Assembly (NCBI GenBank): GCA_949282265.1
Contig: CASDOZ010000009.1
Location: 1 to 64,000, forward strand
Direction of reading: 5' to 3'
DNA from: an uncultured Bacteroidales bacterium
Lineage (GTDB): Bacteria > Bacteroidota > Bacteroidia > Bacteroidales > Paludibacteraceae
Length of the DNA: 64,000 nucleotides
Numbering within the stretch: the stretch's first letter is position 1; each line of letters opens with the position of its first letter. The position numbers and the translations under genes are program-made. The notes below the pieces were generated by a model. That model searched no databases. It had not been told where the DNA came from and saw nothing but the letters and a program-made list of their open reading frames with translations. This document shows, in pieces, positions 7,971-29,335 of the stretch.

Positions 7971-8016
7971 TGCAAATAGATTTTTTGTTATTTGTGAGTT
8001 TTATATTTTTACGCGT

Positions 8017-8024
8017 CAAAGATA
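8017..8024 (-). promoter_or_regulatory. -7 promoter box of the leftward NagB-AmpG operon
   Basis: On the minus strand this reads TATCTTTG, matching the Bacteroidota TAnnTTTG element, about 45 bases before the first gene. No TTTG -33 box lies at the usual spacing, so an activator could be needed. Confidence 0.5.
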
Positions 8025-8053
8025 CGTATTTTATTTGAATAAACAATACGTGG

Positions 8054-8067
8054 CGCAAACGTTTGCG
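8054..8067. promoter_or_regulatory. LacI/PurR-type palindromic operator 1
   Basis: CGCAAACGTTTGCG is a perfect 14-base palindrome with the central CG typical of LacI-family operators such as the PurR site. It lies about 30 bases upstream of the -7 box of the leftward operon, in the region divergent from murK. No LacI-family gene is in the window, so the regulator must be encoded elsewhere. Confidence 0.55.
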
Positions 8068-8205
8068 AGTAAAATTTATTTTTTCGCTGAAAAAATTGTA
8101 GAAGTCAAATCTTTTGTGTTATTTTGTCGGCGGGCAATCCATTCCTGTCTGTTTTTATGAGCTGAAAGTGCCTGTTCCTGGTTTTTGTTTTCTTGTTTGG
8201 TGGAT

Positions 8206-8220
8206 TGTAAACGATTGCAT
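8206..8220. promoter_or_regulatory. LacI-type operator-like site 2
   Basis: TGTAAACGATTGCAT, an imperfect version of the palindrome at 8054, is centred on CG about 50 bases before the murK-like start, where a regulator would touch that promoter. It shares the ten bases AAACGATTGC with the site at 9969. Confidence 0.4.
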
Positions 8221-8265
8221 GAATTTGTGCATAATGTAATTGGTATCAAATAAAAGGATTTAAAA

Positions 8266-9117
8266 ATGATATTGGTAGCAGATAGTGGTTCTACAAAAAC
8301 CCATTGGAGCCTGTGTACGGCTAATGGGCAACATTCGGAGTTTGTAACGGATGGGATAAATCCGTTTTACCAGTCGGAAAATGAAATCCGGCAGGCGGTA
8401 GAACAGCAATTGTGGCCTTCTTTGCAGCAATACATGTGGATAGGCACAATCAATGCTGTGTATTTCTATGGCGCGGGTTGCACGGCAGAAAAAAAAGGAG
8501 TCGTTTCGGCGGCTTTGTCTTCGTGTTTCCCGCAGGCTTCGGTTTCAGTAGAATCGGATTTGTTAGCTGCGGCGCGTGCTTTGTTCGGGCAGTCGGCAGG
8601 CATTGCATGTATCTTGGGGACTGGTTCCAATTCGTGTTATTACGATGGCAGCGTTATTGTGAAAAACGTTTCCCCTTTGGGATTCATATTAGGTGATGAA
8701 GGAAGTGGTGCCGTGTTAGGACGGATTTTGGTAGGCAATGTGCTTAAAAATCAATTGGATAGTGATTTGTGCGAAAGGTTTTTTGCGGCATATAAGTTGA
8801 CTGCGGCGGAAATTCTGGAAAATGTTTATAAACGTCCTTTCCCGAACCGCTTTTTGGCCGGCTTTTCCAAATTTTTGTCTGAAAATATTTCCCATCCTGC
8901 CATTTATAATATTGTGTATGATAGTTTTGATGCGTTTGTGGTCCGTAATGTTTTGCAATATGAAACCAAAGGGCGTAAAGTGGGATTTGTCGGCTCTGTG
9001 GCTTATTATTATGCCGATGTTTTAAAGAACGTGCTTGATGCGCACGATTTGGAGTTGGCGGACATAATGCAGGAACCATTGGAAGGCTTGATACATTATC
9101 ATAAAATTAGAAAATAG
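8266..9117 (+). CDS. MurK-like amino-sugar kinase (BadF/BcrA family)
   Basis: 283-residue sugar kinase of the ASKHA fold, BadF/BadG/BcrA family. Visible motifs are DSGSTKTHW (phosphate-1 loop, residues 5-13), GTGSNS (phosphate-2, near 125), GDEGSGAVLG and a late GSVAYYY adenosine loop. Family members include N-acetylglucosamine kinase and MurK, which phosphorylates MurNAc and GlcNAc and is found beside MurQ in Tannerella forsythia. The next gene here, 2 bases downstream, is murQ, so MurNAc is the likeliest substrate, giving the MurNAc-6-phosphate that MurQ uses. It is cytoplasmic, with no signal peptide. GlcNAc specificity cannot be excluded. Confidence 0.85.
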   Translation: MILVADSGSTKTHWSLCTANGQHSEFVTDGINPFYQSENEIRQAVEQQLWPSLQQYMWIGTINAVYFYGAGCTAEKKGVVSAALSSCFPQASVSVESDLLAAARALFGQSAGIACILGTGSNSCYYDGSVIVKNVSPLGFILGDEGSGAVLGRILVGNVLKNQLDSDLCERFFAAYKLTAAEILENVYKRPFPNRFLAGFSKFLSENISHPAIYNIVYDSFDAFVVRNVLQYETKGRKVGFVGSVAYYYADVLKNVLDAHDLELADIMQEPLEGLIHYHKIRK

Positions 9118-9119
9118 TT

Positions 9120-9935
9120 ATGTTCCAGAAAATCACGGAAAAATCATCTTTATATGATGATTTGGAAAAGAAGAGTGTCCCTGAATTATTGCAGGAAATG
9201 AACATGGAAGATCGCAAGGTCCCTTTGGCGGTAGCCAAAGCGATTCCCCAAATAGCAGACCTGGTGGAAAAAATCGTGGAACGCATGAAACGTGGTGGCC
9301 GTATTTTTTATCTGGGTGCCGGAACGAGCGGCAGGCTTGGGGTGCTGGATGCATCGGAAATTCCGCCGACTTTCGGTATGCCTTCTCATTTGGTGGTCGG
9401 CCTGATAGCCGGAGGCGACGTCGCGCTGCGAAAGCCGGTTGAGAAGGCGGAAGATGACTTTGACCGCGGTTGGGAAGAATTGTGCGAACGTAACATCAAC
9501 AGTTCGGATACGGTTGTGGGCATTGCTGCTTCCGGTACGACGCCTTATGTGATAGGTGCGTTGCGTCATGCGCGGGAGCATGGCATATTGACGGCTTCCA
9601 TTTCGTGCAATCCGGATGCTCCTATTTCACAGGAGGCTGATATAAAGATAGAAGCGATTGTCGGACCGGAGTTTGTAACAGGAAGTACGCGATTGAAGTC
9701 AGGAACGGCCCAAAAGTTGATTTTGAACATGATAACAACTACGACCATGATTCAATTGGGACGTGTAAAAGGCAACAAAATGGTCAACATGCAATTGTCG
9801 AACGCCAAATTAGTGGACAGGGGAACCCGTATGATTGTGGAGGAGCTCGGGCTTGATTACCAGCAGGCTAATAATCTGCTGCTGTTGCATGGCTCTGTTA
9901 AAGATGCTATTGATGCTTATAAAAGGCAGGTGTAA
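9120..9935 (+). CDS. murQ: N-acetylmuramic acid 6-phosphate etherase MurQ
   Basis: 271-residue SIS-domain protein. YLGAGTSGRLGVLDASEIPP (near residue 62) is the hallmark MurQ motif, followed by EKAEDDFDRG, with GIAASGTTPYV as the sugar-phosphate-binding loop. MurQ removes D-lactate from MurNAc-6-phosphate to give GlcNAc-6-phosphate, the entry of murein sugars into amino-sugar metabolism. It is shorter than E. coli MurQ (298 residues) mainly at the C-terminus, but the core is intact. It follows the kinase by 2 bases, so the two are surely co-transcribed. This is one of the most secure calls in the region and anchors the cell-wall interpretation of its neighbours. Confidence 0.95.
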   Translation: MFQKITEKSSLYDDLEKKSVPELLQEMNMEDRKVPLAVAKAIPQIADLVEKIVERMKRGGRIFYLGAGTSGRLGVLDASEIPPTFGMPSHLVVGLIAGGDVALRKPVEKAEDDFDRGWEELCERNINSSDTVVGIAASGTTPYVIGALRHAREHGILTASISCNPDAPISQEADIKIEAIVGPEFVTGSTRLKSGTAQKLILNMITTTTMIQLGRVKGNKMVNMQLSNAKLVDRGTRMIVEELGLDYQQANNLLLLHGSVKDAIDAYKRQV

Positions 9936-9968
9936 TGTTAAAAAACAAAACCATGTTTTATAACATAC

Positions 9969-9982
9969 TGCAAACGATTGCG
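9969..9982. promoter_or_regulatory. LacI-type operator-like site 3
   Basis: TGCAAACGATTGCG, centred on CG, resembles the perfect palindrome at 8054. It lies 33 bases past the murQ stop and upstream of the susC leader, so the SusCD locus could share a regulator with murK-murQ and the divergent operon. Confidence 0.45.
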
Positions 9983-10064
9983 CTTTTGATTTTTTTTTTG
10001 TTCCTTTGCCGCCAGAAGAATTTCTTTCTGCTGATTTGAGTTGAATTGTTTTGGTGACATTTTT

Positions 10065-10087
10065 ACCGGAAAAACAATTCCGGTTTT
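10065..10087 (+). terminator. probable murQ terminator or susC attenuator
   Basis: ACCGGAA (10065-10071) pairs with TTCCGGT (10078-10084), followed by a short T-run. An alternative stem, GAATTGTTTT (10043-10052) with AAAACAATTC (10071-10080), would exclude it, the arrangement expected of an attenuator. Confidence 0.4.
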
Positions 10088-10271
10088 GTGAAAGATAAAA
10101 CTTAACCATTTTTGAAATCTGACCATGTGTGAACAAATCTATGCCATAGATCGAATTTTCAGTCCTGTCAGTCGTAATGCCGCAGGAGCTGTTTTGCCGT
10201 ATGGTTTGTGGTCAAGGTTCGTTTTAGTGTTTTTTATGATTAAAAATTTGTGCATATCAAATAATTTGATA

Positions 10272-10291
10272 ACACACACACACACACACAC
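10272..10291 (+). repeat. (AC)10 dinucleotide repeat
   Basis: Ten uninterrupted AC units lie 150 bases before the susC start codon. Such tracts can change length by slipped-strand mispairing and alter promoter or leader spacing; whether this one does is unknown. Confidence 0.9.
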
Positions 10292-10343
10292 CAAGTAGTC
10301 AGCGTTTTATATTTTTACATAATTTGTTTTTGGGGAATGCAAG

Positions 10344-10373
10344 GCCACGAAGGGTTTTTCAACTTTTCGTGGC
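10344..10373 (+). promoter_or_regulatory. stable hairpin in the susC leader
   Basis: GCCACGAA (10344-10351) pairs perfectly with TTCGTGGC (10366-10373) around a 14-base loop, followed by TTTGCTTGTTT. It ends 68 bases before the susC start. It could terminate or attenuate the transcript or stabilise the mRNA. Confidence 0.5.
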
Positions 10374-10441
10374 TTTGCTTGTTTGTACCTGTCCGTTCAG
10401 GTTTTCTGATTTGAAGAACTTGTAGCAACAAATAGAGTGGT

Positions 10442-13400
10442 ATGAAGAAAATAGTAATTTTTGTTATAGGTGTTTTGGTGGCAACACATGTTTTGTATGC
10501 TCAACAACGTAGTGTATCTGGATTAGTTACGTCTGCCGAAGATGGCTTGCCGGTGATAGGGGCCAGTGTTCTTGAAAAAGGGACATCCAATGGCACAATT
10601 ACGGATGTAGATGGTGTCTATACGCTTGTTGTTTCAGAAGGGGCTACCTTGGTAGTTAGTTATGTGGGTATGCAGTCTGCGGAAATAAAGGTAACGTCAG
10701 ACCGCCACAATATTAAATTGAAAACAGATGCGGTTGCCATTGATGAGGTCGTTGTTACTGCCATGGGTATCAAGCAGGAAAAGAAACGAATGAATTTTGC
10801 AGTCCAGAGTGTGGATGGCGATGCTATTACTGATAGCCGTTCGGCTAATTTCGTAAATTCGTTGCAAGGTAAGATTGCCGGTATAAGTGTAACCAATTCC
10901 AGCGGTTCTCCCAATTCGGAATCACAAATTATTGTGCGTGGTATTGCTTCCATTAATCCGTCCCAGAATAATGAGCCTATGTTTATCTTGGATGGAATCC
11001 CTTTGTCGGGAGGAGGCTCGGCTGCTGCTGATATAAATCCAAATGATATAGAAAATATAACGGTGCTGAAAGGTGCGGCTGCCGCAGCCTTGTATGGACA
11101 AGATGCCGCTAATGGTGTTATTATGATTACGACCAAACAAGGGGAGATTGGTAAGGTTAGTGTAACGGCCAATGCGAGCGTTGAATACGATATGCCGACC
11201 CGCGTGCCGCAATTGCAGACAAGTTATATGCCTGGTTCACAAGGATTCTATAAGGAAAAAACAATGGGTGGTTGGGGGCCATTGTTGGCTGAAGGACAGA
11301 CCATTTATGACAATGTGAATAATTTCTTGCAGAACGGTTTGTATCAGAAATACGATGTGAGTATGACTGGCGGTAGCGAAAAGTTCCAGGCATACGCTTC
11401 TGCCCAATACTCAAAAAACGATGGTATCGTCCCGAATGATTATTTAGATAAAATAGGCGTTATGTTGAAAGGGACATATACACCTGTCAAATCATTGACA
11501 GTTACTGTTTCTGCCAACATCTTGGAGACTACTTCACGTACGTTTGCTGCCGATGGCATGTCCAGTGTGTATAACTGGCCGATTACGGATGATATAACCA
11601 ATTATGAAAATGTGAATGGTTATCCCCGTTTTCTGTATTACGCGGATGTGAACAAATATGATTCGCCGGTAAGCCCTTTGTTTTCACGTTATAATGATTA
11701 TGAAAAAAACAAGGCTTTGCGCAATATCCTGCATGGTTCCATAAATTGGAAGCCATTCAAGAATTTTGAGATAACCGGCCGTGTCAGTTATGATACGAAA
11801 TCTACTTCCACCGATTCTTATCAAGTGCCACGTTGGGATGATACTGTTATTTATCAGTCATGCAAGATGCCGGCTGCTTTGGGTGATGGTGCCACGGCGG
11901 AAGAGCAGGCCCAATATGCAGCAGCTTTGGCCGCGTATGAGGAATATACAGCTATTTTGCGTGATGTTTATCCGACATCACCTTATCTGACGAGTGATGA
12001 TATTAGCAATATGGATTGGGACCTTTTGGGTTTGTATAAAACGAGAGGCGGCAAGAGCCAGTTATTTACGGCCTCTGCGATTGCAACTTATAAAATAGAA
12101 CTGCCGCTTGATTTCAGCATTGATTTGTTGGCCGGAACGGAAATGAAAATATCGGAAGGTTTTTCTATGTCCAATGCCGGACGCGATTTTATAATTCCCG
12201 GTGTATATAGTTTGAGTAATACAAACAGTGAATACCTTAAACTGACGGATCGCACAGCGGAACATAGTGGAAAAAGAACGTTCGGTTATTTTGGTGAAAT
12301 CCGTGGTGATTACAAAGGTCTTGCTTCGTTGAGCGTAACAGGACGTTGGGACTGGTCCTCTACTATTTTAAAGAACCCGTATTTTTACCCATCCATAACT
12401 GCGGGTTTGCTCTTTTCTGAATTGTTTGGCATAGCCGGCGATGTGTTCAGTTATGGGAAATTGCGTGGTAATTATGCCGTTGTCGGTAAGGATGCGCCCG
12501 CTTATTTGTATGACCGCCGTTTCAAACAATTTGCTACATATCCGGATGGTGGTTATGGAATAGACCCGACATTGTCGTCGGCAAGCAAGGAATTGATGCC
12601 GGAAATGTCCTATTCGTGGGAGGTTGGTGCCGACTTGCGCTTTTTCAACAACAAGACACGACTTGATGTGGCATATTATTCCACCAAAGTGGATAACCAG
12701 ATCGTAACGGTGCGCGTGTCGCCTTCGTCCGGGTATATTTTGCAAACCCGTAATGAAGGTGCAGTCCGGAACCATGGCGTGGAATTTACGTTGGATCAAG
12801 ATATTATAAATAGAGATGCATTTGCATGGACAGCCTCATTGAACTTCGGCTTAAATCGGGGTACAGTTGTCAGCCTGCCAGAAGATGTGGCGGAAATTAC
12901 GGGAAAGCAATATGGTGATATTTATACCTCAGCCTATTTGGGTGCTTCGACAACGGCCATTTCAGGAAAAGACTATCTGCGTACCAATGACGGGCAGATT
13001 ATTTGTACGGCTGATGGTTATCCGCAAATCGATACGAACAAAAACAAGTTGATAGGTAACCGCGAACCATTATTCCAGGCTGGTTTGACCAATATGTTTA
13101 GATATAAAGGTTGGTCGTTGTCGTTTATGTTTGATGGACGTTTGGGCGGCGATGTGGTGAATGTAACCGGCCGTGGACTGATATCTAACGGACAGAGTGC
13201 TATCTTGGAAAAATACCGTGGCCGTCAGGTTGTGGTGGAAGGCGTTGTTTTGCAGGAAGATGGCACGTATGCGCCGAATACTATGCCCATTCAGCTGGAT
13301 TACCAGACAATAACGAACTATTTCTACAATGTCAGCTCGAATTTTGTGGAAGACGGTTCTTATATTCGTTTGAGTTATGTTACGCTGGCTTATGATTTCT

Positions 13401-13603
13401 CTCATTTGTTGAAAAAGAAAGTTTTGCAAGGACTTCGTTTGTCTTTGACCGGAAATAATCTGTTCTTGTTGACGAAATATACGGGTTCTGATCCGACTTG
13501 TAACGCAAGTGCGAGTGCGGGAGGAACAGGCTCAGCCGGTATAGATAATTATGCTGTACCAAGTACGCGTGGTATCAATTGTACGGTAAGCGTTTCATTC
13601 TAA
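10442..13603 (+). CDS. SusC/RagA-type TonB-dependent outer-membrane transporter
   Basis: 1053 residues. A signal peptide ends at about residue 20 (LYAQQ). A carboxypeptidase-regulatory-like domain (about 24-105) is followed by DEVVVTAMG as a TonB-box-like stretch, a plug with the SusC signature PMFILDGIPLSG, and a long beta-barrel ending in phenylalanine. SusC proteins import glycans or peptides too large for porins, using TonB energy and a SusD lid. First gene of a nine-gene rightward locus, with SusD downstream. No sigma/anti-sigma pair or hybrid sensor is adjacent, so regulation is atypical; the upstream LacI-like sites may matter. The locus enzymes suggest murein fragments as cargo (inference). 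Confidence 0.93.
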   Translation: MKKIVIFVIGVLVATHVLYAQQRSVSGLVTSAEDGLPVIGASVLEKGTSNGTITDVDGVYTLVVSEGATLVVSYVGMQSAEIKVTSDRHNIKLKTDAVAIDEVVVTAMGIKQEKKRMNFAVQSVDGDAITDSRSANFVNSLQGKIAGISVTNSSGSPNSESQIIVRGIASINPSQNNEPMFILDGIPLSGGGSAAADINPNDIENITVLKGAAAAALYGQDAANGVIMITTKQGEIGKVSVTANASVEYDMPTRVPQLQTSYMPGSQGFYKEKTMGGWGPLLAEGQTIYDNVNNFLQNGLYQKYDVSMTGGSEKFQAYASAQYSKNDGIVPNDYLDKIGVMLKGTYTPVKSLTVTVSANILETTSRTFAADGMSSVYNWPITDDITNYENVNGYPRFLYYADVNKYDSPVSPLFSRYNDYEKNKALRNILHGSINWKPFKNFEITGRVSYDTKSTSTDSYQVPRWDDTVIYQSCKMPAALGDGATAEEQAQYAAALAAYEEYTAILRDVYPTSPYLTSDDISNMDWDLLGLYKTRGGKSQLFTASAIATYKIELPLDFSIDLLAGTEMKISEGFSMSNAGRDFIIPGVYSLSNTNSEYLKLTDRTAEHSGKRTFGYFGEIRGDYKGLASLSVTGRWDWSSTILKNPYFYPSITAGLLFSELFGIAGDVFSYGKLRGNYAVVGKDAPAYLYDRRFKQFATYPDGGYGIDPTLSSASKELMPEMSYSWEVGADLRFFNNKTRLDVAYYSTKVDNQIVTVRVSPSSGYILQTRNEGAVRNHGVEFTLDQDIINRDAFAWTASLNFGLNRGTVVSLPEDVAEITGKQYGDIYTSAYLGASTTAISGKDYLRTNDGQIICTADGYPQIDTNKNKLIGNREPLFQAGLTNMFRYKGWSLSFMFDGRLGGDVVNVTGRGLISNGQSAILEKYRGRQVVVEGVVLQEDGTYAPNTMPIQLDYQTITNYFYNVSSNFVEDGSYIRLSYVTLAYDFSHLLKKKVLQGLRLSLTGNNLFLLTKYTGSDPTCNASASAGGTGSAGIDNYAVPSTRGINCTVSVSF

Positions 13604-13639
13604 ATATTTGATATGTTGAACAATAATTCAGTTCTTAGT

Positions 13640-15406
13640 ATGAAGAAGATTCGATATATTATGTTGGCTGTTGTGGCTACTGTTTGTTGTACGGCCTGTG
13701 AGGATTTTTTGGATGTCAATACCAGCAAAGATAGTGCTACCTCCGTTACGGTGGATCAATTGTTGCCTACCGCTTGTTTTTACGCATCGCAAATCAACTA
13801 TGATCATGCGGAGTATGGTGTATATTTGGCGCAGGCATTGACTACTGGCGAAAAAAGTCAGACCGGTGTATATGCATATAGTGCCGGTTGGGAATTTCTT
13901 TCCATGAACCGCCATCCACAATGGCGGCGCCATTTTTACGATTTGGGAGCCAATATTAATGAAATGTATGCGGCGGCAGAAGAAATCAATTCACGGAATT
14001 TCATCCTAATAGGGCGTACCATCATGTTGCTGTCCACCATGCTGACAACCGATGTGTTCGGTGATATGCCGCGTTCGAATGCTTATACAACGACTTCACC
14101 GACTTATGATTCGCAAGCATCTATTTATGATTGGATGTTTCAGGAAGCGGATGAATTGATTGCATTGTATGAGGATAAATCGTGGACGGAGAATGCGGAC
14201 AATATTCCCATTTCACAGAAAATGGATCGTATTTATGCAGGCGATTTGAAAAAATGGGAATTATATACGAAAGCTCTGCGGGCACGGCTTTGGTTACGCA
14301 AATTACCTAATTGGGAAAATACGCCGGCCGTTTGCTCGCATATTGTTCAACTTGTTGATGAAGTTTTGGATGATCCGAATTGGGAAGAGCCCTTATATCA
14401 TTATGATGGCGGTACGAGTGAGCAGAATTGTCCTTGGGGACCGTATGCGCCTACTATTAATTCATGGGAGAGTCGGGCAAATCGCTTGGCAACATCCATT
14501 CCGACCAAGTTTTTTGGTTATGCCTTGTTAGGTGGATATGAGCGCAAGACTACGAACCGGCGATATGCCCTTGACCCGCGTGCGGAAAAAATGATGACGC
14601 CGCGTGAGTCTTCGACGGGTTCTGGATCAGATGCCATGCGCTGGCTTGAAAGCAACATAGGCATGGATGCATCCATGAAAATAACTTATTATCCGGATTT
14701 GTTTGCTTCGGAAGGTAATAACCCTTATACATCCAATATTGGTTATATTGCTTTGATGACTGATGAGGAGTTGCTTTTCATAAAGGCCGAGGCCCAATAT
14801 TGGGGAGGTGACAAGGCTGCTGCTTATGAAACGACCAAACAGGCAGTTTTGCGCAGTATGGAACGCTATGGTATTCGGGAATCTGATTTGAGCGGTACAG
14901 CTTTGACCCGTTATGAACGTTTCTTTGAAGTACGATTGCCCGGTGCCACCACATTCAGCATTTCCGATTTGATGCAGCAAAAGTTTGTCGCTATGTACTT
15001 GCAGCCAGAGTTGTGGACGGACGTACGCCGCTATAATTATAGTAGCAAAACGAATGGTATTTTATATGATGGTGTGCCTGTTTACACGGTTACGACATGC
15101 CATGACGGCTCAAGTACGGGTTACAAAGTGGAAAATTTTACTGTGGAATATTCCCTGCGTCGTCCGTATAATTTGTATGAGCCGTATTGGTGTCAGGCGG
15201 ATGCATATGGAATCAATGCAGAACTGTCTCCGAACGCTTGGGTGAACCGGTTGAACTACGATCCGGAAACGGAAGACAAATATAACCGTGCGGAATTGGA
15301 ACGTTTGGGTGCGTACAAAAACCATGAATGGCTGAAAAAGCGTATGATATGGGCGTACAATACTTCGGGCAAAGCTGTGTGCAGTGACCCGACAGAGTGG
15401 AAATAG
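13640..15406 (+). CDS. SusD/RagB-family surface lipoprotein
   Basis: About 588 residues. I take the Met at 13640 because it starts a normal lipoprotein signal (MKKIRYIMLAVVATVCCTAC) with the lipid-bearing Cys at its end; a Met nine codons earlier only adds a polar tail. EDFLDVNTSKDSAT after the Cys is typical of SusD mature N-termini, and the rest has the TPR-rich SusD pattern with many Trp and Tyr residues. SusD forms the hinged lid over SusC and binds ligand at the cell surface. It begins 36 bases after the susC stop. The subfamily looks like the SusD-like group used for small or non-starch ligands; the ligand is not readable. Confidence 0.9.
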   Translation: MKKIRYIMLAVVATVCCTACEDFLDVNTSKDSATSVTVDQLLPTACFYASQINYDHAEYGVYLAQALTTGEKSQTGVYAYSAGWEFLSMNRHPQWRRHFYDLGANINEMYAAAEEINSRNFILIGRTIMLLSTMLTTDVFGDMPRSNAYTTTSPTYDSQASIYDWMFQEADELIALYEDKSWTENADNIPISQKMDRIYAGDLKKWELYTKALRARLWLRKLPNWENTPAVCSHIVQLVDEVLDDPNWEEPLYHYDGGTSEQNCPWGPYAPTINSWESRANRLATSIPTKFFGYALLGGYERKTTNRRYALDPRAEKMMTPRESSTGSGSDAMRWLESNIGMDASMKITYYPDLFASEGNNPYTSNIGYIALMTDEELLFIKAEAQYWGGDKAAAYETTKQAVLRSMERYGIRESDLSGTALTRYERFFEVRLPGATTFSISDLMQQKFVAMYLQPELWTDVRRYNYSSKTNGILYDGVPVYTVTTCHDGSSTGYKVENFTVEYSLRRPYNLYEPYWCQADAYGINAELSPNAWVNRLNYDPETEDKYNRAELERLGAYKNHEWLKKRMIWAYNTSGKAVCSDPTEWK

Positions 15407-15433: not shown

Positions 15434-16297
15434 ATGAAAAATTCATTGAATAAGATAGCGGCGGTAGTTTTTGGTAGCTTGCTTATGCTGGGTCTGTTTT
15501 CTTGTGAAAAACATGATTTGTTTGATGAAAATGCCATGACTGGTGATATAGGACCACAAGCTTATTGGGAAATCGGCAGTTCGATGGTGAATGCCGGTGC
15601 AACTGTGCCATTTACAGCCCAATATTACTCGACGGTTTCGGAAATCGACCATTCCGAAGTCTGGTATAAAATTGAAGAGAGCCTGGAGAAAAATGTTTCT
15701 TGTCCGTGGGTAACTACTTTTACATACGACATCAGTTCATCGGTGACAGAAGAAAAACGGATTTCCCAGAAAATCCAGGAATATCCACATGAACTAGCGA
15801 CTTGGAATGATTCGCTTCATGCCTATTATTTTGAAAGTACTTTCCCCGTAAGTTATACGTTGAGCGCTTATTCGTGGAGTAAGCCGGCAACCATGGATAC
15901 GACCTTGGCGGAACGTTATTTCGGACAGGAATACATGCAGCATTTCAAGGACAGCCTCTATACGTTGATGCAGTTCGATGATTTCCAGAAAATGTTTTTA
16001 GGCCTGGAATTGTTGGAAGATTTCAAACAGTACACCGATTCAACTCTGGATGAAAATGCGGGGGAAAATGTTTATACCTATCATTTCCCGAAAAATGAAG
16101 CCGGTGAGACCCCTGTGCCGGAAGATATCCGGAAAATGTATGAAGGAATCTCCTTTTATGATTTGATTTTCAATACATCGACCGGAGTTTATGACATAGA
16201 GTATAAGCGTTCTTATGGATTGGAGGCTGTGTTGCGTGTCTATGATACGCGCGGGGTTTATGGGACTACGATAATGAAAGAGATAAGTATCAATTAA
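15434..16297 (+). CDS. lipoprotein of unknown family in the SusCD locus
   Basis: 287 residues. A lipoprotein signal ends in LGLFSC, with the Cys at about residue 24, so the protein is membrane-anchored and probably surface-exposed. I do not recognise the mature domain. It is acidic, rich in Tyr and Trp, and looks mostly beta, with a helical stretch at about 155-200. It starts 27 bases after susD and ends 11 bases before the PKD lipoprotein, the place where surface glycan-binding proteins are usually encoded, so accessory ligand binding is a reasonable guess. No catalytic motif is visible. Confidence 0.7.
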   Translation: MKNSLNKIAAVVFGSLLMLGLFSCEKHDLFDENAMTGDIGPQAYWEIGSSMVNAGATVPFTAQYYSTVSEIDHSEVWYKIEESLEKNVSCPWVTTFTYDISSSVTEEKRISQKIQEYPHELATWNDSLHAYYFESTFPVSYTLSAYSWSKPATMDTTLAERYFGQEYMQHFKDSLYTLMQFDDFQKMFLGLELLEDFKQYTDSTLDENAGENVYTYHFPKNEAGETPVPEDIRKMYEGISFYDLIFNTSTGVYDIEYKRSYGLEAVLRVYDTRGVYGTTIMKEISIN

Positions 16298-17979: not shown

Positions 17980-18005
17980 CAGGTCGATTTGTAAAATATG
18001 GATAT

Positions 18006-23410: not shown

Positions 23411-23464
23411 GCTAAAACAATTGTTGCTTTGCCGGAAATAATATGTCCTTTTTATCTTGTTCCC

Positions 23465-25912
23465 ATGAAATATAAATACATAACTACTTTTTTCTTTTTT
23501 GTCTGCTGGTCTCTGTCCGTTTTTGCCGTCCAATTGGATGGGGTAGATTATACGGTTGATACGCTGCAGCATATTCAGGTCGGACCGGGCAGCTGGTACA
23601 CGTCAATGCGTTTCATGAAAGTGAACGAGCAAACGGTTAACCGACGTCTGGATGTTTATTTCTTGCATGTCGATGCATCCAATCCGTACATCCGGTTCCA
23701 AACCGTGTTGGGACGCGATTCGATTTTGATGGGCGAAGCGCCTTCCAGCATGGCGGCACGCAAGTCAGATGCGAATAATACGTTTTTCGCGGGTACGAAT
23801 GGCGATTTTTACATAACAACGGGTTATGTCGGTTTACCTACAGGAGGAACCATGTCGGCTTCACAGTTGGCATATACGCCAAACAACGAACGTCCTGTTA
23901 CAGCAATCGATGTTGCAAACAATTTCCGAATAGGTGCCATGCAATACGAGGGGTTCGTCGTTTACGGAGAGGATACCTGCAGCATCAGCCATGTCAATCA
24001 TTTGAGGAATGAAAACGAATTGGTGCTCTATAACCGGCATAATGGCCGCGTAACCCGCACGAATGCTTACGGTACGGAAGTGCTTCTGGACCTGGTGGAG
24101 GGAGAAACATGGGGCGTGAATAAAACATTACGTGCCAGGGTCGTGAAAGTGGAGAAAAATGTGGGTTCCATGGCCATTCCTGAAAATCAGGCGGTGTTGT
24201 CCGGATACGGAGAGGCGCAAACCTATTTGGATGCCTTGGAAACGGGTGCGGAACTTACTTTGGCGTTGAGCATGACGGTTGATGGTGTTGCCGCCGCATA
24301 TACGGATGCTTTGGGCGGAGACCCGCGTGCATTGATGCTGAAAGGTGGTGTCGTGGAGAGCAATATCGATAATATTTGGAACGAATTGCATCCGCGTACG
24401 GGTTTTGGATATACCCAGAGTGGCGATACGGCTGTTTTTTGTGTAGTTGATGGGCGTGGTATGTCGGCTGGATGTACAACCAAGGTTTTAGCGGAATTAA
24501 TGCAACGTGCAGGAGCCTATACGGCCATTAATTGGGATGGTGGCGGTTCAAGTTGCATGTATGTCAAGGAGTTCGGGCAAGTCAATACGCCGAGCGATGG
24601 GACGGAACGTGCTGTCTGCAACGGATTTTTTGCTGTTGCCACAGCCCCTGAAGACAAGGAAATCGCCCAAATTGCAGCATACGAGCCGCGTTTGGAATTG
24701 CCGCGTTACGGTTTATTGAAACCTAAATTTCTGAGTTATAATCGTTATGGTTTATTGCTTGATACGGATCTTCAAGGGGTAAAACTCTCATGTGCGCCGG
24801 AAGTTGGTGAAATTCTGGAAGATGGTACTTTCTTGGCCACCGGTTCGGCAGGCGGGATAATAACGGCTACTTTTCAAGAAAATATAACCACACAAATTTC
24901 GGTGACTTTGATTTCAGATATGGATATTGCCATTCGTCTGGATTCCGTGCTGATGGATAACAGGCGTGATTATGAGATAGAAGTATTGGGTTTGGCTGGC
25001 TCGGACACATTGGATATTCTGTCCAAAGCCTTTGAGTGGGAGGTCAGGAATCCTGATGTTTGTGTGGTGGAAGACGGAGTTATACATGCCAAGAGCAATG
25101 GCAACACGTATGTTGTGGGCAGGATGAGTGCGGATGCGGAACCAGATTCTTTGAAAGTATGTGTGGAAATTCCAGAAATGACGCCATATAAATGGAGTAC
25201 GTTTGCCAGCGATGAGAATTGGAATTTGACAAGCACATCAGGATTTAATCCGCAAATAATTTGTTCGGATGGCGAACCTGCCGTACTTCATTTTACTTAC
25301 GAGGTCGGCCGTGCACCATTCCTCAAATTGGAACGTGAAACGCCTTTGTATGGCTTGCCTGATACCGTACGCCTGGAAATAAATGCTGGCAATGTTGCAT
25401 TGAAGAACGTTATTGTCGGTATGCGTGCCAATAATAGGTCAGCGAGTCAGACTGGGACATGGACGTTTACCGATATTCCGCAGCAGCAGGACGTTGTTTT
25501 GTCCATACCGATTGACCAAGTGTATGCCGATTGGCCTGATTTTGCCATTTATCCGATATGGATGAAATATATCACACTGAATCTGGATGCATCTGGCATG
25601 ACGAGCAATACGGAATACGATATTGTGCTGAATGGTTTGTCGCTGTGTTACAACGGACTGGAAATTACCTATTTGAACCCGGTACACCAATCCTCTTTAC
25701 GGGTCTATCCGAATCCTGTCGTGCAGGACATGTTGCACATAACCGGCTTTGATGCCGCGGTTGGGCAATTGTGCTTGTTCGATTTGCAGGGACGCATGGT
25801 GCTGGCACAAACGGTTATGGGACAGTCGGTAACGTTGGATTTGTCCAGTCTTTCCGCTGGTACGTATTTGCTACGTCTGGATGCTGAAACGGTGAAAATA
25901 GTAAAACCATAA
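23465..25912 (+). CDS. phosphodiester glycosidase (NAGPA/DUF2233) with T9SS tail
   Basis: About 815 residues from the Met at 23465, which begins a signal peptide ending in LSVFAV. The NAGPA domain spans about 60-400: GTNGDFY (110-116), ALGGDPRALML, HPRTGFGY and NWDGGGSS (356-363) are its conserved motifs. The human member removes GlcNAc from GlcNAc-1-phosphodiesters; bacterial members are often tied to cell-wall metabolism. Ig-like domains follow, then a T9SS type A tail containing VYPNPV and ending in VKIVKP. The protein should therefore be exported. In this locus it may remove sugars linked by phosphodiester, such as teichoic-acid or capsule linkages on murein (inference). Confidence 0.85.
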   Translation: MKYKYITTFFFFVCWSLSVFAVQLDGVDYTVDTLQHIQVGPGSWYTSMRFMKVNEQTVNRRLDVYFLHVDASNPYIRFQTVLGRDSILMGEAPSSMAARKSDANNTFFAGTNGDFYITTGYVGLPTGGTMSASQLAYTPNNERPVTAIDVANNFRIGAMQYEGFVVYGEDTCSISHVNHLRNENELVLYNRHNGRVTRTNAYGTEVLLDLVEGETWGVNKTLRARVVKVEKNVGSMAIPENQAVLSGYGEAQTYLDALETGAELTLALSMTVDGVAAAYTDALGGDPRALMLKGGVVESNIDNIWNELHPRTGFGYTQSGDTAVFCVVDGRGMSAGCTTKVLAELMQRAGAYTAINWDGGGSSCMYVKEFGQVNTPSDGTERAVCNGFFAVATAPEDKEIAQIAAYEPRLELPRYGLLKPKFLSYNRYGLLLDTDLQGVKLSCAPEVGEILEDGTFLATGSAGGIITATFQENITTQISVTLISDMDIAIRLDSVLMDNRRDYEIEVLGLAGSDTLDILSKAFEWEVRNPDVCVVEDGVIHAKSNGNTYVVGRMSADAEPDSLKVCVEIPEMTPYKWSTFASDENWNLTSTSGFNPQIICSDGEPAVLHFTYEVGRAPFLKLERETPLYGLPDTVRLEINAGNVALKNVIVGMRANNRSASQTGTWTFTDIPQQQDVVLSIPIDQVYADWPDFAIYPIWMKYITLNLDASGMTSNTEYDIVLNGLSLCYNGLEITYLNPVHQSSLRVYPNPVVQDMLHITGFDAAVGQLCLFDLQGRMVLAQTVMGQSVTLDLSSLSAGTYLLRLDAETVKIVKP

Positions 25913-25976
25913 TCGTGCTATCCATAAATATGTTCGTATTTGCAATTTCTATGTAAACCGACTAAAAATAAAGGTT

Positions 25977-26867
25977 ATGAAAAATTTTTTGATACTATGC
26001 TTATTTTTTTGTGTGTTTGCTGTTAATGCACAAAAGGTCAGTGTGTTAAGTTGTGAATTTGTCCAAAACGGGTTTTATCCTGAGTTGAATGTGGATGGAA
26101 CCCAAATGTTATTGACTTCGGAAAACTATGCGGGTTTGTCCTTGTTTGATTTGCAACAAGGGAGTTTGATACAGCTCAGCCAAGATGCGGGTGCAGGCTA
26201 TCAGCCTTTGTTCAGCGCCGATAATTCGACGGTGTTTTTCCGTTCCCGGGAAATCAGGAATGGCTATGGCTATGTGTCCGTGAAATCTTGCGCATTGTCA
26301 ACTGGTTCTATCCGGGTTTTGTTGTCGCCGCGGCGTGATGTAGGTCGTTTGGTCTCGTATGGCAACGGAGTTTTGTTCAATCAGGGAAACCAGTTGCGCA
26401 AAGCGACTTTTGGTAAAACGGCTGTTCCTGTTCCAGCGTTCGTCAGCAATGAAAATCTGGACCTGGTGCTCTACAAAGATGGGAAACGTACGGTTTTGCA
26501 TCCGTATGCGGAAGAATTGAATTACATCTGGTCTTCATTGTCGCCCGATGGGCAGAAAATATTGTTCAATACGAAATACGGGACGGCTGTTTGCGATTTG
26601 GAAGGAAATATTTTAGTGGAGCTTGGCCATTTGAATGCGCCCGTTTGGTTCAATGACAATTTGGTCGTTGGCATGTACGATGTCGATGATGGCCATGTGA
26701 TAACAGCTTCCTGTATAGCAATGGTATCGTTGGATGGCAAGCTTAACCAACGTCTTACGGATGGGGCTGAGATAGCCATGTATCCTTCCGTTTCGGCGCA
26801 AAGTGGTAAAATCGCGTTCAATACTTTGGATGGAAAAATTTATGTGATGACAGTCGCAGTAGAGTAG
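25977..26867 (+). CDS. exported WD40/TolB-like beta-propeller protein
   Basis: 296 residues. A signal peptide ends in FAVNAQ. The mature part has repeated PD40/TolB-type blades: YPELNVDGTQMLLTS, YQPLFSADNSTVFFRS, WSSLSPDGQKILFNT and MYPSVSAQSGKIAFNT. Such propellers usually bind proteins or sugars; none of the blades carries a recognisable catalytic motif. Unlike its neighbours it has no T9SS tail and no lipobox, so it probably stays in the periplasm. It sits between the phosphodiester glycosidase and the amidase with short gaps (64 and 32 bases), suggesting a shared transcript and perhaps an adaptor role. Confidence 0.7.
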   Translation: MKNFLILCLFFCVFAVNAQKVSVLSCEFVQNGFYPELNVDGTQMLLTSENYAGLSLFDLQQGSLIQLSQDAGAGYQPLFSADNSTVFFRSREIRNGYGYVSVKSCALSTGSIRVLLSPRRDVGRLVSYGNGVLFNQGNQLRKATFGKTAVPVPAFVSNENLDLVLYKDGKRTVLHPYAEELNYIWSSLSPDGQKILFNTKYGTAVCDLEGNILVELGHLNAPVWFNDNLVVGMYDVDDGHVITASCIAMVSLDGKLNQRLTDGAEIAMYPSVSAQSGKIAFNTLDGKIYVMTVAVE

Positions 26868-26899
26868 GCATGTTGTAATAATCTGATAAATATGAACCT

Positions 26900-29335
26900 A
26901 TGAAAAAACGTGTTTTATTTCTGATGGGGTGCTCCATGTTGTTTGCCCTTATGCAGGCGCAAGACATGAGCGGTGTGAGAATTTACATCAATCCCGGGCA
27001 CGGTGGTTACGACAGCGATGACCGTAATATGGTTGTCTATCCATATACTTCTGGCGACCCGGAAGGTTTTTGGGAATCCAAAAGCAATTTGTATAAAGGA
27101 TTGGCCTTGCGTGATATGCTTGAGGCTGCTGGTGCGGATGTGAAAATGAGCCGTGTTACCAATACGACGGCAGACGATCGGGCCTTGTCGGCTATTGTGG
27201 CAGAAGCTAATCAGTATGATGCAGATTTCATGCTGTCCATACATTCCAATGCTGGTGTAACAAATTATGTGTTGATGTTGTATGCGGGGATAGATGAAAA
27301 TGATACGCATGTTTATCCGACGCCGACACCTTGCTCGGATGAGAGCCGTGCTATCAGTACGGTAATTGCGCAAAATCTGTACAGCAACCAGATTACCTGC
27401 TGGGGCGGAAATTACACTGTGCGTGGCGACAAAAGTTTTGGGCGGACAGCCATGGGCTGGAGCGATGGTTATGGCGTTTTGCGTGGATTGGTTGTGCCGG
27501 GTGTTATCTCGGAGGGCTGTATGCATGATTATATACCGGAAACATACCGTTTGCTGAATGATGATTACAAATGGCTGGAAGCCTGGCATTTCTTCAAATC
27601 GTTCTGTACATATTTCAAGACGGCTGAAATTCCAACGGGCGTTGTTGCCGGTTCGGTACGTGATGGTAGTAATAAAATCCTATTCCCGGAATTTTATAAA
27701 ATCAAGGGTAGCCGTGATGAGTTGTTGCCTTTGCATGGTGCGCATGTGTATTTAACGCAAGGAGAGGACACCGTGCAGACCTATGTGACGGATACTTTAT
27801 ATAATGGTGTTTATGTATTTAAGGATTTGCAGCCTGGTGAATATCGCTTGTCGGTTGTGGCGGATGATTATTATGAATCAGGCCAGGACATAACCGTGTC
27901 GGCGAATGATATAACATATTTCAATTTTGGCATGTCCAAAGTGCGCAGTACGCCGCCAGAAGTTATCGCGTACGAGCCGTGCCCGGCATCGGCGACCGAT
28001 AGTGTGGAATGTTCAACGGATATTGTGTTGCAATTCAATTGGGACATGGTAGCAGATTCCACCATGGCGGCATTCTCCATAACGCCAGAAGTGGAAGGTA
28101 CCCTGACTATGGAAAACAGCCAGAAAACGCTCCGTTTCTCACCGAATGGTTCGTTGGAACCGGCCACAAACTATACGGTACGTTTGACGACTCAGGCATG
28201 TCATCCTGACACAGCACATCCGAACCATCTCGAACAGGATTTTGTTTTGCAATTTGTGACTAAAAAGCGTGGAAACTTGAGTCTGTTGCAGAGTTATCCA
28301 TTTGCAGATGCCGTGCAAGTACCGCTGCGTCCTTCGTTTATCCTGATTTATGACCAGAAACTGAATACTTCTTCGGTGCGCAATGCTGTTTCTGTCATGG
28401 ACATGGCAGGGACAGAAATGACAAAAAATACGCGTTCGTTTACTTATAACAAAGTTGATGAACCTTATGGTCATGTGTCATTCGAGTTGGTGGATGCCTT
28501 GCAGCCGGAATCTGATTACAAATTGGTGATTGGCTCGACATTGACAGACAATATTGGAATTATGACAGAAACTACGGTGGAAATTCCGTTCCGGACAGGT
28601 AAGGAAACGGAATTGGATGTAACGGTTATAAACGAGCTGGACACCTTGGTTTTTGTCTATGATGCAGCAAAAAGCCGCTCTGTCAATACGGCGTCCGTGT
28701 TCCGGAATACGTCTAAAAAACTATATGGTACGGCCTCTAATGAGTTGCGTTATGATTTTGCCGATATGGATGGTGAGGTTTATTATGCAACCACCAATCC
28801 GACTGCTGTTTTGGCCACTTCCGATGACATGTTTGGTTTGCATGTGTTTGCCGATTTCTCATTCAACGAGTTGTGGGCGGAGTTTAGCGTCGATGGCGAT
28901 ATCAAGTATGCGAAAGTATGCGATATGGATTATGCCGGCTGGCAATACCATCAGGTGTCGTTGCAAGATGTGATTCCGGAGGGTGTGACTTACCAGTTTG
29001 TCGGTTTGAAATTAGTCCGTCAGGACAGTTTCCTGTCGGCAGCCGGCAATATCTATATCGATAATATGACTTTGTGCAAAATTTCGGAAACCTCATTGCT
29101 TTGGACGATAGATAAACCTTTGTCGGTTTATCCGAATCCCGCGGCAGATGAGGTTTGGCTGACAGGTACTATAAGTACTCCGGCCGTGTTGCAAATCTAT
29201 TCGCTTTCTGGCAAATTGCTGAAAAGTGTGAATGCAACCCGTATGGTTGTTCGTGATTTACCGGAAGGAACATATATATTGCGTGCACGGATAAATGGCA
29301 GCACATATAGTACGCCATTACTTGTTGTGCATTGA
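26900..29335 (+). CDS. N-acetylmuramoyl-L-alanine amidase (Amidase_3) with T9SS tail
   Basis: 811 residues. The signal peptide ends in ALMQAQD. The Amidase_3 domain spans about 25-235, with zinc ligands visible as NPGHGGYD (His34), FWESK (Glu59) and LSIHSNAG (His115) and a catalytic Glu in GVISEGCMHDY. This fold cuts the bond between MurNAc and the stem peptide. A carboxypeptidase-regulatory-like beta domain (about 285-355) is followed by two Big_5-type Ig domains (about 360-580) and a T9SS type A tail containing VYPNPA. Unlike house-keeping AmiC-type amidases it appears to be sent to the cell surface, suggesting it acts on foreign or shed murein. Last gene of the SusCD locus. Confidence 0.9.
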   Translation: MKKRVLFLMGCSMLFALMQAQDMSGVRIYINPGHGGYDSDDRNMVVYPYTSGDPEGFWESKSNLYKGLALRDMLEAAGADVKMSRVTNTTADDRALSAIVAEANQYDADFMLSIHSNAGVTNYVLMLYAGIDENDTHVYPTPTPCSDESRAISTVIAQNLYSNQITCWGGNYTVRGDKSFGRTAMGWSDGYGVLRGLVVPGVISEGCMHDYIPETYRLLNDDYKWLEAWHFFKSFCTYFKTAEIPTGVVAGSVRDGSNKILFPEFYKIKGSRDELLPLHGAHVYLTQGEDTVQTYVTDTLYNGVYVFKDLQPGEYRLSVVADDYYESGQDITVSANDITYFNFGMSKVRSTPPEVIAYEPCPASATDSVECSTDIVLQFNWDMVADSTMAAFSITPEVEGTLTMENSQKTLRFSPNGSLEPATNYTVRLTTQACHPDTAHPNHLEQDFVLQFVTKKRGNLSLLQSYPFADAVQVPLRPSFILIYDQKLNTSSVRNAVSVMDMAGTEMTKNTRSFTYNKVDEPYGHVSFELVDALQPESDYKLVIGSTLTDNIGIMTETTVEIPFRTGKETELDVTVINELDTLVFVYDAAKSRSVNTASVFRNTSKKLYGTASNELRYDFADMDGEVYYATTNPTAVLATSDDMFGLHVFADFSFNELWAEFSVDGDIKYAKVCDMDYAGWQYHQVSLQDVIPEGVTYQFVGLKLVRQDSFLSAAGNIYIDNMTLCKISETSLLWTIDKPLSVYPNPAADEVWLTGTISTPAVLQIYSLSGKLLKSVNATRMVVRDLPEGTYILRARINGSTYSTPLLVVH

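Follow-up and report, generated by a model that had tools for sequence, protein, structure and literature searches.

In a 64,000-nucleotide stretch of DNA from an uncultured Bacteroidales bacterium (the window), we identified a gene module that very probably constitutes a polysaccharide-utilisation-type (PUL-type) system for bacterial cell wall, meaning peptidoglycan and possibly the polymers attached to it, coupled to a MurNAc/muropeptide block (Table 1). The presence and order of its genes, their conservation in relatives and the retention of active-site residues form the firm part of this reading, on which the predicted substrate, activities, secretion and direction of transport are built. 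An earlier note on this DNA had listed MurK, MurQ, SusC, SusD, lipoproteins, a GHL10 enzyme, NAGPA, a DUF4623 protein, a propeller and Amidase_3 between 7980 and 29335. All of these genes were located, every one on the plus strand between 8266 and 29335, and the list is borne out by Pfam, TIGRFAM and structure matches. The end of that interval stands; its start is intergenic, the first gene beginning at 8266, and the interval omits a divergent upstream block (284-7970) that is part of the same biology. The adjacency of murKQ to SusCD, taken there as one locus, also holds, but murKQ is the end of a separate block, and the module proper runs from SusC to Amidase_3.

Table 1. Features of the window that belong to the MurNAc/muropeptide block, the murQ-susC gap and the module.
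Feature	Coordinates	Strand	Basis
AmpG-like muropeptide permease (MFS)	284..2272	-	Pfam BT1, MFS_1
SpoIID/LytB-type protein	2170..3621	-	Pfam SpoIID 80.9 bits
DUF4922 protein, block member	3626..4534	-	Pfam 216 bits
GT2-like protein, block member	4518..5969	-	Pfam Glycos_transf_2 89.8 bits
NagB (GlcN-6-P deaminase)-PIG-L fusion	5988..7970	-	Pfam Glucosamine_iso 57.9, PIG-L 71 bits
MurK-like MurNAc kinase	8266..9117	+	solved relatives, S-P-L and Asp residues
MurQ, MurNAc-6-P etherase	9120..9935	+	TIGR00274 over cut-off
murQ-susC gap, 506 bp	9936..10441	.	holds terminator-like hairpin
SusC, TonB-linked outer-membrane importer	10442..13603	+	TIGR04056 627.7 bits
SusD-like lipoprotein	13613..15406	+	Pfam SusD-like_2 76 bits; lipobox Cys in translation
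Lipoprotein 1 (LP1), candidate surface ligand binder	15434..16297	+	lipobox
Lipoprotein 2 (LP2), PKD and beta-propeller, module marker	16309..17979	+	Pfam PKD_4, AlphaFold
GHL10 glycosidase / lytic transglycosylase (predicted), probable T9SS cargo	17976..20765	+	Pfam 215.8 bits
DUF4623-like propeller protein, possible T9SS cargo	20823..23354	+	AlphaFold/4ftd
NAGPA phosphodiester glycosidase (predicted), T9SS cargo	23429..25912	+	Pfam 88.7 bits
Secreted PD40 propeller	25977..26867	+	Pfam PD40 26.2 bits; signal peptide in translation
Amidase_3, N-acetylmuramoyl-L-alanine amidase (predicted), T9SS cargo	26900..29335	+	Pfam 44.3 bits

The genes murK and murQ close a T. forsythia-type MurNAc/muropeptide block (ampG, spoIID, GT, murK, murQ), with ampG, lytB/SpoIID, murK and murQ occurring together at the window locus. 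The seven annotated proteins of 284-9935 include neither murT nor ybbC/NamZ; NamZ is encoded elsewhere in the same genome. The nearest solved chains of the AmpG-like permease are AmpG structures (8zgz, 9.8e-21; 9c3f, 1.7e-20). The SpoIID/LytB-type gene occupies the position of lytB in the T. forsythia operon as given in excerpts of PMC5388701, and its product likely acts on peptide-free glycan strands. MurK has solved relatives in 1zbs (5.4e-94) and 8ow9 ('Putative novel MurNAc kinase', 4.5e-90), and its S136-P137-L138 and Asp98 correspond to S133-P134-L135 and D95 of T. forsythia MurK (excerpts of PMC10465942). MurQ scored 376.8 bits with NF003915 and 314.3 bits with TIGR00274 (cut-off 302). 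Rfam gave no match in the gap that follows murQ; an 18-pair terminator-like hairpin lies there at 10339-10378, with the susC start 63 bases further on, so adjacency alone does not make murQ and susC one operon in this species.

Within the module, susC and susD are adjacent and co-located with genes for the glycan-active enzymes GHL10 and NAGPA (Pfam; activity predicted), as in Sus-like PULs. The nearest solved chain to SusC is 5fq6 (named SusC/RagA family, BT_2264; 3.6e-95). LP1 matched no Pfam family, and the AlphaFold model of LP2 (pLDDT 80.9) gave propeller matches; lipoboxes, position and the LP2 propeller fold make both candidate surface glycan-binding lipoproteins. The window's own module holds no peptidase, and Pfam annotation revealed no regulator among ten flanking and module proteins.

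For the GHL10 protein, which likely starts at ATG 18006 in place of TTG 17976, only one solved relative came within E<=0.001, namely Cwp19, a peptidoglycan enzyme of C. difficile (2.3e-74); the two share the GHL10 domain, and DigH of E. coli is a member of the same family. In a 16-row alignment, the equivalents of Cwp19 W36, Q77, W127, R132, D196, Y197, Q295 and Y297 are invariant; the S250 position is identical in the window protein and is not listed among the invariant columns, while G328, F367 and S368 fall outside the alignment. Available portions of the respective papers describe Cwp19 as cutting peptidoglycan (PMC6016235) and as a slow enzyme (PMC5765458), and DigH as degrading peptide-free strands (PMC12288456); one GHL10 protein is reported to use starch (PMC9967864). 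Cwp19 and DigH, both wall-glycan cutters in the portions cited, target their own cell's wall, whereas the window GHL10 is 929 aa long, has several domains and probably carries a T9SS tail.

For NAGPA, likely starting at ATG 23465, the profile search reached the NAGPA structures 6pku, 6pky, 6pki and 6pkg, and its motifs R-T, D-G, DGGGS and PSD align with the uncovering enzyme structures and with the bacterial DUF2233 protein 3ohg. In Amidase_3, H34, E59, H115 and E205 are invariant in a 4-row alignment, and the first three align with Cwp6 (5j72); we take the four to be zinc ligands plus the catalytic Glu, E205. The DUF4623 assignment, for which the window protein itself gave no Pfam match at E<=0.01, is upheld by its AlphaFold model (pLDDT 75.6), whose top PDB match is 4ftd (DUF4623; E 1e-13, TM 0.57 by target length), and by its homologue in genome G320, which matches Pfam DUF4623 at 31.6 bits (cut-off 28.9).

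Tails were sought with the T9SS profile TIGR04183 (cut-off 23) in two scans, the second across the genome, and with Pfam. The four tails proposed earlier proved uneven. Those of NAGPA (42.5 bits) and Amidase_3 (39.2 bits) were found again in the genome scan and by Pfam, and the T9SS protein SprA is encoded in the genome (2766 bits); as their tails exceed the cut-off and the genome encodes a T9SS, these two proteins are predicted T9SS cargo. The others are weaker, each recovered in one scan of two: GHL10 reached 26.9 bits in the first scan, the genome scan giving nothing at its position and Pfam no tail, and the DUF4623-like protein scored 18.7 bits, below the cut-off, in the first scan and 23.1, at the cut-off, in the genome scan, with no Pfam tail.

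The earlier note had made conservation in relatives a point to examine, and the grouping is kept. Taking LP2 as the module marker in 250 genomes of the family, we found murQ in 48 of 49 genomes with LP2 versus 37 of 201 lacking it, figures that are descriptive since the genomes are related and the counts are not independent events. Within one genus (69 genomes listed) the corresponding values were 19/19 and 4/50. murQ was colinear with the module within 10 kb in 30 of the 49, and 37 genomes carried murQ and no module. At the 18 of 21 LP2-carrying loci with enough sequence upstream of SusC, murQ was colinear immediately upstream at 13 and turned round within 4 kb at two; the fetched upstream stretch did not contain it at three.

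In several of these genomes, peptidoglycan genes adjoin the module or occupy the interval separating it from murQ: G195 has AmiA-like amidase, epimerase-like and NlpC/P60 genes, G159 has NamZ, a GlcD-type oxidase and an additional GHL10, and G222 has SpoIID with GT2. A GlcD-type oxidase follows Amidase_3 in G007, where the contig carrying murQ lacks the module. In G024, murQ is 149 kb from the module on the other strand; in G124, G095 and G251 the two are on separate contigs, with long upstream sequence, and in G066 (L100 denotes the same contig) the module stops after GHL10.

In other families of the order, peptidoglycan genes adjoin the module in five of six genomes. In G600 a murK-murQ fusion, ampG, DUF4922 and GT2 diverge from the module, and a T9SS-tailed purple-acid-phosphatase-like protein is encoded between the two NAGPA genes; in G601 and G357, murK immediately follows Amidase_3. 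G320 and G485 have NlpC/P60+SH3, an epimerase-like enzyme (nearest solved chain in G320, 3iji, 4e-137) and NamZ beside the module. G559 retains SusCD-LP1-LP2-GHL10 next to a GH31 gene, with NAGPA, Amidase_3 and peptidoglycan genes absent from the fetched stretch. Metallophos-PQQ proteins occur near the module in several lineages. Judging by their record titles, module-carrying bacteria come from samples of rumen, gut and reactors. This conservation beside varied peptidoglycan genes supports the earlier proposal that the substrate is bacterial cell wall, which we regard as very likely on genomic grounds. Points against it are the modules distant from murQ, the reduced loci of G559 and G066, the 37 genomes with murQ and no module, the lack of a peptidase in the window's module and of a regulator among the ten proteins, the two weaker tails, the hairpin before susC, the slowness of Cwp19 and the reported starch use of a GHL10 protein.

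We propose that the T9SS would deliver Amidase_3 and NAGPA, and probably also GHL10 and the DUF4623-like protein, to the cell surface or beyond it, where Amidase_3 would remove stem peptides, GHL10 would cleave peptide-poor strands, and NAGPA would take off phosphodiester-linked sugars. LP1, LP2 and SusD may bind the fragments for TonB-energised import by SusC. SpoIID-type, NamZ and GH3 enzymes would trim them, and the AmpG-like permease would carry them across the inner membrane. MurK would yield MurNAc-6-P, MurQ would convert it to GlcNAc-6-P and D-lactate, and NagB would lead into glycolysis; the GlcD-type oxidase of some relatives could burn the D-lactate.

Wall teichoic acids and the rhamnose polymers of streptococci are attached through GlcNAc-1-phosphate linked to O6 of MurNAc, and the substrate of the human uncovering enzyme, GlcNAc-1-P-6-mannose, contains the same kind of bond. 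The target might be decorated Gram-positive walls, a tentative extension that we consider rather doubtful, in which NAGPA would cut the GlcNAc-1-P-6-MurNAc link and leave MurNAc-6-P for MurQ; its motifs are common to the uncovering enzyme (6pkg and others) and 3ohg, and the wall-polymer linkage as its substrate is our proposal. Such a cut would bare the glycan for GHL10, the MurNAc-6-P would be usable by MurQ without MurK if it crossed the membranes, and the extra phosphoesterases of relatives would remove the polymer. In streptococci, de-acetylation of the linkage sugar by PplD-type enzymes could then protect against attack of this sort.

Other uses of the module deserve weighing, two of which overlap with wall feeding. 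Recovery of wall fragments that the cell itself sheds on dividing, again with peptidoglycan as substrate, appears unlikely: the flanking block is of recycling type, and in E. coli DigH and amidases function in division (excerpts of PMC12288456), but T9SS tails and a SusCD pair suggest an extracellular substrate. Moreover, murA is present in the genome, so MurNAc salvage would be dispensable. To our knowledge, the Gram-negative wall offers no target for NAGPA copies and phosphoesterases, which further argues against self-recovery. Somewhat less likely again is that the exported amidase and GHL10 mainly lyse living competitors, feeding coming second. Wall-cutting enzymes are indeed predicted to be exported in this T9SS bacterium, and the accessible text of PMC12419801 discusses spore-former proteins uniting NAGPA with a TelC-like domain, some with NlpC/P60, under interspecies conflict; nevertheless, SusCD, the catabolic genes and the neighbouring GlcD-type oxidases fit nutrition.

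It is improbable that the target is another phosphodiester- or GlcNAc-rich glycan, such as a capsule or exopolysaccharide, with murKQ a neighbour by descent. The unlinked murKQ and module of some genomes, the resemblance of GHL10 structure to the poly-GlcNAc handler PgaB (portions of PMC5765458) and weak PgaB matches of the G256 GHL10 would agree with it, yet rearranged loci retain other peptidoglycan genes next to the module, and those of G195, G320 and G485 include genes of stem-peptide type. That an unrelated SusCD locus stands beside a MurNAc block by chance is scarcely credible: the block, or most of it, lacks an adjoining module in G002, G033, G034 and G055, but the colinear arrangement within 10 kb described above compares with about 0.2 genomes expected (same strand, either side, 2.5-Mb genomes, kinship aside).

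Among known systems, the T. forsythia ampG-murTKQ operon (Tanf_08345-08385) shares ampG, lytB/SpoIID, two glycosyltransferase-type genes, murK and murQ with the window, whereas murQ is its last gene and it contains no SusCD, GHL10, NAGPA or Amidase_3 (both as given in excerpts of PMC5388701). Its ybbC/NamZ also occurs in relatives of the window, and their Golvesin-domain protein may be its 'xanthan lyase'. The operon serves a MurNAc auxotroph, unlike the window genome with its murA. Bacillus subtilis possesses a MurNAc operon (murQ, murR, murP, amiE, nagZ, namZ) plus the ykf murein-peptide genes. The common logic is an outside amidase, a glycosidase and MurQ, and the ykf epimerase and endopeptidase for stem peptides resemble genes of G195, G320 and G485; the window system has no PTS, and would rely on SusCD and AmpG for uptake and T9SS for export. 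With Sus-like PULs of Bacteroidota the module shares SusC/SusD, lipoproteins and, by prediction, exported glycan-cutting enzymes in one block, and differs in its predicted substrate, bacterial wall.

A wall-feeding role for PUL-type clusters has until now been merely hinted at. According to portions of PMC6499787, the classical peptidoglycan families GH23, 24, 25 and 73 are under-represented in 13,537 PULs and present in several predicted ones; GHL10 was awaiting CAZy reclassification in 2017 (portions of PMC5765458), so a wall-targeting PUL could have escaped notice. On T. forsythia uptake, PMC5388701 contains no word beginning 'susc' or 'tonb', and the available text of PMC7670621 has no 'tonb' words and one beginning 'susc'. 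These findings suggest searching for SusCD pairs that neighbour MurNAc or murein-peptide genes. If correct, our reading would propose how peptidoglycan fragments cross the outer membrane in Bacteroidota, a step so far missing, and would provide GHL10 and bacterial NAGPA proteins with a substrate that can be tested. For rumen, gut and reactor bacteria, bacterial wall would then be a nutrient in its own right, served by a dedicated SusCD system, bearing on the turnover of bacterial remains in these habitats.

The LP2 lipoprotein, a PKD and beta-propeller protein, served as the marker of the module that runs from SusC to Amidase_3 because of its good conservation: across a 17-row alignment, identity to the window protein is 44-67%. 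Scanning one genome per species identified 21 LP2 loci, in records that were almost all metagenome-assembled and were titled Paludibacteraceae, Paludibacter, Bacteroidales or Bacteroidia, Dysgonamonadaceae (two), Prevotellaceae (one) and Porphyromonadaceae (one). The Porphyromonadaceae record (bacterium H1, L093/G007) bears the title of a strain instead of a MAG, and its module is present from SusC through Amidase_3. Three loci (L085, L093 and L099) with too little upstream sequence were left out of the upstream count; among the remaining 18, 13 carry murQ colinear and directly 5′ of susC. At L083 and L084, murQ lies less than 4 kb away but inverted, with GT2 and AmpG genes in between, and it was not found in the fetched upstream stretches of L082, L086 and L094, the first of which has a GT2 gene there.

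Across 250 genomes of the family, LP2 orthologues (at least 558 bits; next match 164 bits) were identified in 49 and MurQ (E ≤ 1e-60) in 85. MurQ was present in 48/49 LP2-positive versus 37/201 LP2-negative genomes (Fisher p = 8e-27, uncorrected for kinship), the sole exception, genome G155, being 85% complete and in about 410 contigs. Within g21, the largest genus (69 genomes listed), MurQ occurred in 19/19 LP2-positive versus 4/50 LP2-negative genomes; among the latter carriers, G110 has a MurQ of 46% identity, the sequence of G262 stops at murQ, and other genes are found there in G244 and G264. The module thus accompanies murQ, while murQ does not require the module. Genome G012 was scored as LP2-negative, its only LP2-like sequence being diverged and cut off by the contig end (122 bits), although a SusC follows its murQ. 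Single in-frame stops interrupt MurQ copies in five genomes (TAG in G084, G243 and G251; TGA in G233 and G247), representing either pseudogenes or sequencing errors; the LP2-positive G084 and G251 were counted as MurQ-positive. Outside the module, the association of NAGPA with murQ (7/13 versus 30/188 genomes; p = 0.003, uncorrected for kinship) lends weak support to their travelling together, and 7 of 57 NAGPA-bearing genomes were without murQ.

The murQ gene ends 5.7-7.2 kb 5′ of LP2 on the same strand in 30 of the 49 LP2-positive genomes; it takes another arrangement on the LP2 contig in 5 and lies on a different contig in 13. Among the eight plus-strand cases of these 13, the contig began less than 6.3 kb before LP2 in G007, G112, G150, G203 and G217, and at least 13.7 kb preceded LP2 in G095, G124 and G251. 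The 21-locus and 250-genome sets overlap (L081 is G001, L091 is G028, L092 is G020, L093 is G007 and L094 is G195, matched on the length and content of their contigs) and are not independent.

In the wider order, LP2 was detected (E ≤ 1e-60) in 9/393 genomes, three in the window's own family and six outside it. In G600, a full module diverges from genes for AmpG, DUF4922, GT2 and an in-frame murK-murQ fusion; within this module, two NAGPA genes flank a T9SS-tailed Pur_ac_phosph_N-Metallophos protein. This MurK-MurQ fusion is a single reading frame of 560 aa, and the MurQ of G043 likewise lies within a 560-aa open frame. In G601 and G357, murK and a Golvesin-domain protein follow the module. 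G320 and G485 carry transglutaminase-like, NlpC/P60+SH3 and epimerase-like genes upstream, with NamZ beyond; murQ was not found in the stretch examined. For the epimerase-like protein of G320, the closest structure is 3iji, deposited under the name muconate cycloisomerase (4e-137); dipeptide and L-Ala-D/L-Glu epimerases come next, and the NCBIfam scores of the protein fall under cut-off. G559 argues against a fixed gene set: only SusCD, LP1, LP2 and GHL10 are present, adjoining GH31, and no peptidoglycan gene was found in the stretch examined. The grouping on which the earlier note had built its reading is conserved in relatives.

Neighbouring genes vary within the family, while the peptidoglycan pathway is retained. 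G195 presents murQ, an AmiA-like amidase and a second SusCD pair with opposite-strand epimerase-like and NlpC/P60 genes before the module; G159 places NamZ, a GlcD-type oxidase and a second GHL10 between susC and murQ; and in G222, SpoIID and GT2 adjoin susC, with NagA (TIGR00221 over cut-off) and a NAGPA protein after murQ. A NAGPA homologue sits between ampG and spoIID in G012, and in G007 a GlcD-type oxidase directly follows Amidase_3. Since the MurQ reaction yields D-lactate, an oxidase of this type near the module fits, and our guess is that it might oxidise D-lactate; in NCBIfam, the homologues from G159 and G485 match glycolate and D-2-hydroxyglutarate types, below cut-off. The 1.8-Mb genome of G012 contains 14 GHL10 matches (on L072, its contig C45, and elsewhere), several being pieces of one gene, and one of its contigs bears four GHL10 genes in tandem; in this small genome, wall-enzyme genes have expanded.

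Coordinates of features (window positions unless a fetched locus, L, is named)
Feature	Location	Orientation	Remark
AmpG-like permease, SpoIID, DUF4922, GT2, NagB-PIG-L	284-7970	minus	divergent from murK-murQ
murK-murQ	8266-9935	opposite to the 284-7970 block	
murQ-susC gap	9936-10441		506 bp
Terminator-like hairpin	10339-10378		18 pairs
SusC, SusD, LP1, LP2, GHL10, DUF4623-like, NAGPA, PD40 propeller, Amidase_3	10442-29335		gene order as written
MurK-MurQ fusion (G600)	L130:774-2456		
Short-tail proteins (G256)	L115:13496-15970, L116:26-1048, L116:1226-3496, L116:4212-6467, L116:9465-11816		also L095, L096, L117
Calcineurin-like phosphoesterases	L131:4346-7681, L131:15095-16975, L082:1529-3367, L135:14073-15926, L139:11240-13192, L140:1908-3785		

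The draft genome holding the window comprises 2.47 Mb in 28 contigs. Genes inside the module are spaced by 9-110 bp or overlap at their ends, and a single operon of murKQ and module was considered. For the window species this was dropped in view of the 506-bp gap and its terminator-like hairpin; because this hairpin, followed by a T-rich stretch, directly precedes susC, murKQ and the module are likely transcribed separately. The surrounding region (7900-10600) held 4 terminator-like sites versus 3.6 in shuffles, among which the hairpin stands out by its 18 pairs; it could be a terminator, an attenuator or a leader element, and an Rfam scan of the region returned zero matches, hairpin included. 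The Bacteroidota-type promoter pattern was absent from the murQ-susC gap and gave a single weak match on the minus strand of the nagB-murK gap. The murQ-susC gap also contains about nine consecutive CA units. The gap is only about 60-100 bp in G020, G012 and G256, so a single transcript may hold elsewhere. All or most of the MurNAc block occurs without an adjoining module in G002, G033, G034 and G055, and G007 and G024 have a complete module distant from murQ; module and block are therefore separable units that adjoin each other. MurNAc auxotrophy as the rationale of the locus is unlikely, given that murA is present.

The four type IX secretion (T9SS) tails proposed in the earlier note stand in part (TIGR04183, cut-off 23 bits). 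NAGPA and Amidase_3 exceed the cut-off in every scan, while the GHL10 tail (26.9 bits in one scan, not reported in the genome scan) and the DUF4623-like tail (18.7 bits in one scan; 23.1 bits, at the cut-off, in the genome scan) are weak, each passing one. SprA is encoded in the genome (2766 bits). The lower count leaves the odds of the overall reading unchanged, because conservation carries the argument. In G256, GHL10, NAGPA, Amidase_3, the DUF4623-like protein and also an LRR protein unrelated to them share a similar short C-terminal tail that is not the Por tail, approximately K-x-[IL]-x(4)-L-x-I-x-[RK]-N-G-x-x-Y-[DNT]-x-x-G; in NAGPA the tail has diverged. The motif is loosely defined (a stricter pattern caught only two), and the region matched no Pfam or NCBIfam model; it may be a sorting signal that has not been catalogued. 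On visual inspection, tails of both types occur within one module in L096 and L117.

Among GHL10 rows (16-row alignment), the Cwp19 positions W36, Q77, W127, R132, D196, Y197, Q295 and Y297 are invariant, as are H34, E59, H115 and E205 of Amidase_3 (4 rows). Cwp19 is described as having lytic transglycosylase activity (PMC6016235) and as slow on whole cells (PMC5765458). MurK retains an S-P-L stretch, which gives room for the lactyl group. The nearest solved chain to SusC is 5fq6, which we take to be a peptide importer; as only a lead, this likeness would suit peptide-bearing fragments. SusD matches its solved relatives weakly (5.8e-08 at best), which gives no indication of a ligand, and the LP2 model matches generic propellers (BtuG, PorZ, TolB, LRP6) without substrate information. 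The predicted DUF4623-like model (pLDDT 75.6, pTM 0.58) supports the family assignment only.

The NAGPA profile reaches 3ohg as well as structures that bear the NAGPA name. GlcNAc-1-phosphate connects wall teichoic acids to MurNAc, and a phosphodiester to O6 of MurNAc connects the streptococcal group A polymer (both PMC8807736), linkages that resemble the bond in the enzyme's name. By this analogy NAGPA could conceivably cleave the GlcNAc-1-phosphate link of wall polymers to MurNAc, a reading we consider doubtful. Extracellular phosphoesterases of the ShfP family, some with PQQ propellers or NAGPA fusions, have teichoic acid among their proposed targets (PMC11488536). Close to the module, Metallophos-PQQ proteins occur in G251 (L082), G600, G601/G357, G320 and G485; in G007 they occur within the MurNAc block, and none was seen among the window's annotated proteins. 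Several lineages have calcineurin-like phosphoesterases in the vicinity of the module, five of the six listed being fused to a PQQ propeller.

The window's block with murKQ matches the Tannerella forsythia operon Tanf_08345-08385, which comprises a xanthan lyase, two glycosyltransferases, lytB, ampG and ybbC, then murT, murK and murQ (PMC5388701). The idea of a wall-targeting polysaccharide utilisation locus (PUL) is not new, because several of the PULs predicted in a survey were already noted to contain peptidoglycan families (PMC6499787). In titles or abstracts of open-licence literature, a peptidoglycan SusCD locus was not found described among the matches listed, and one may be in print elsewhere. 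Within that literature, what appears to be new is the conservation of a SusCD module that includes putatively exported GHL10, NAGPA and Amidase_3 and that is linked, in several families, to genes of MurNAc and stem-peptide type. Comparative genomics, through the conservation of module and murQ and the peptidoglycan genes beside the module in other families, supports the wall-scavenging reading, and bacterial cell wall as the predicted substrate of this locus is well supported.
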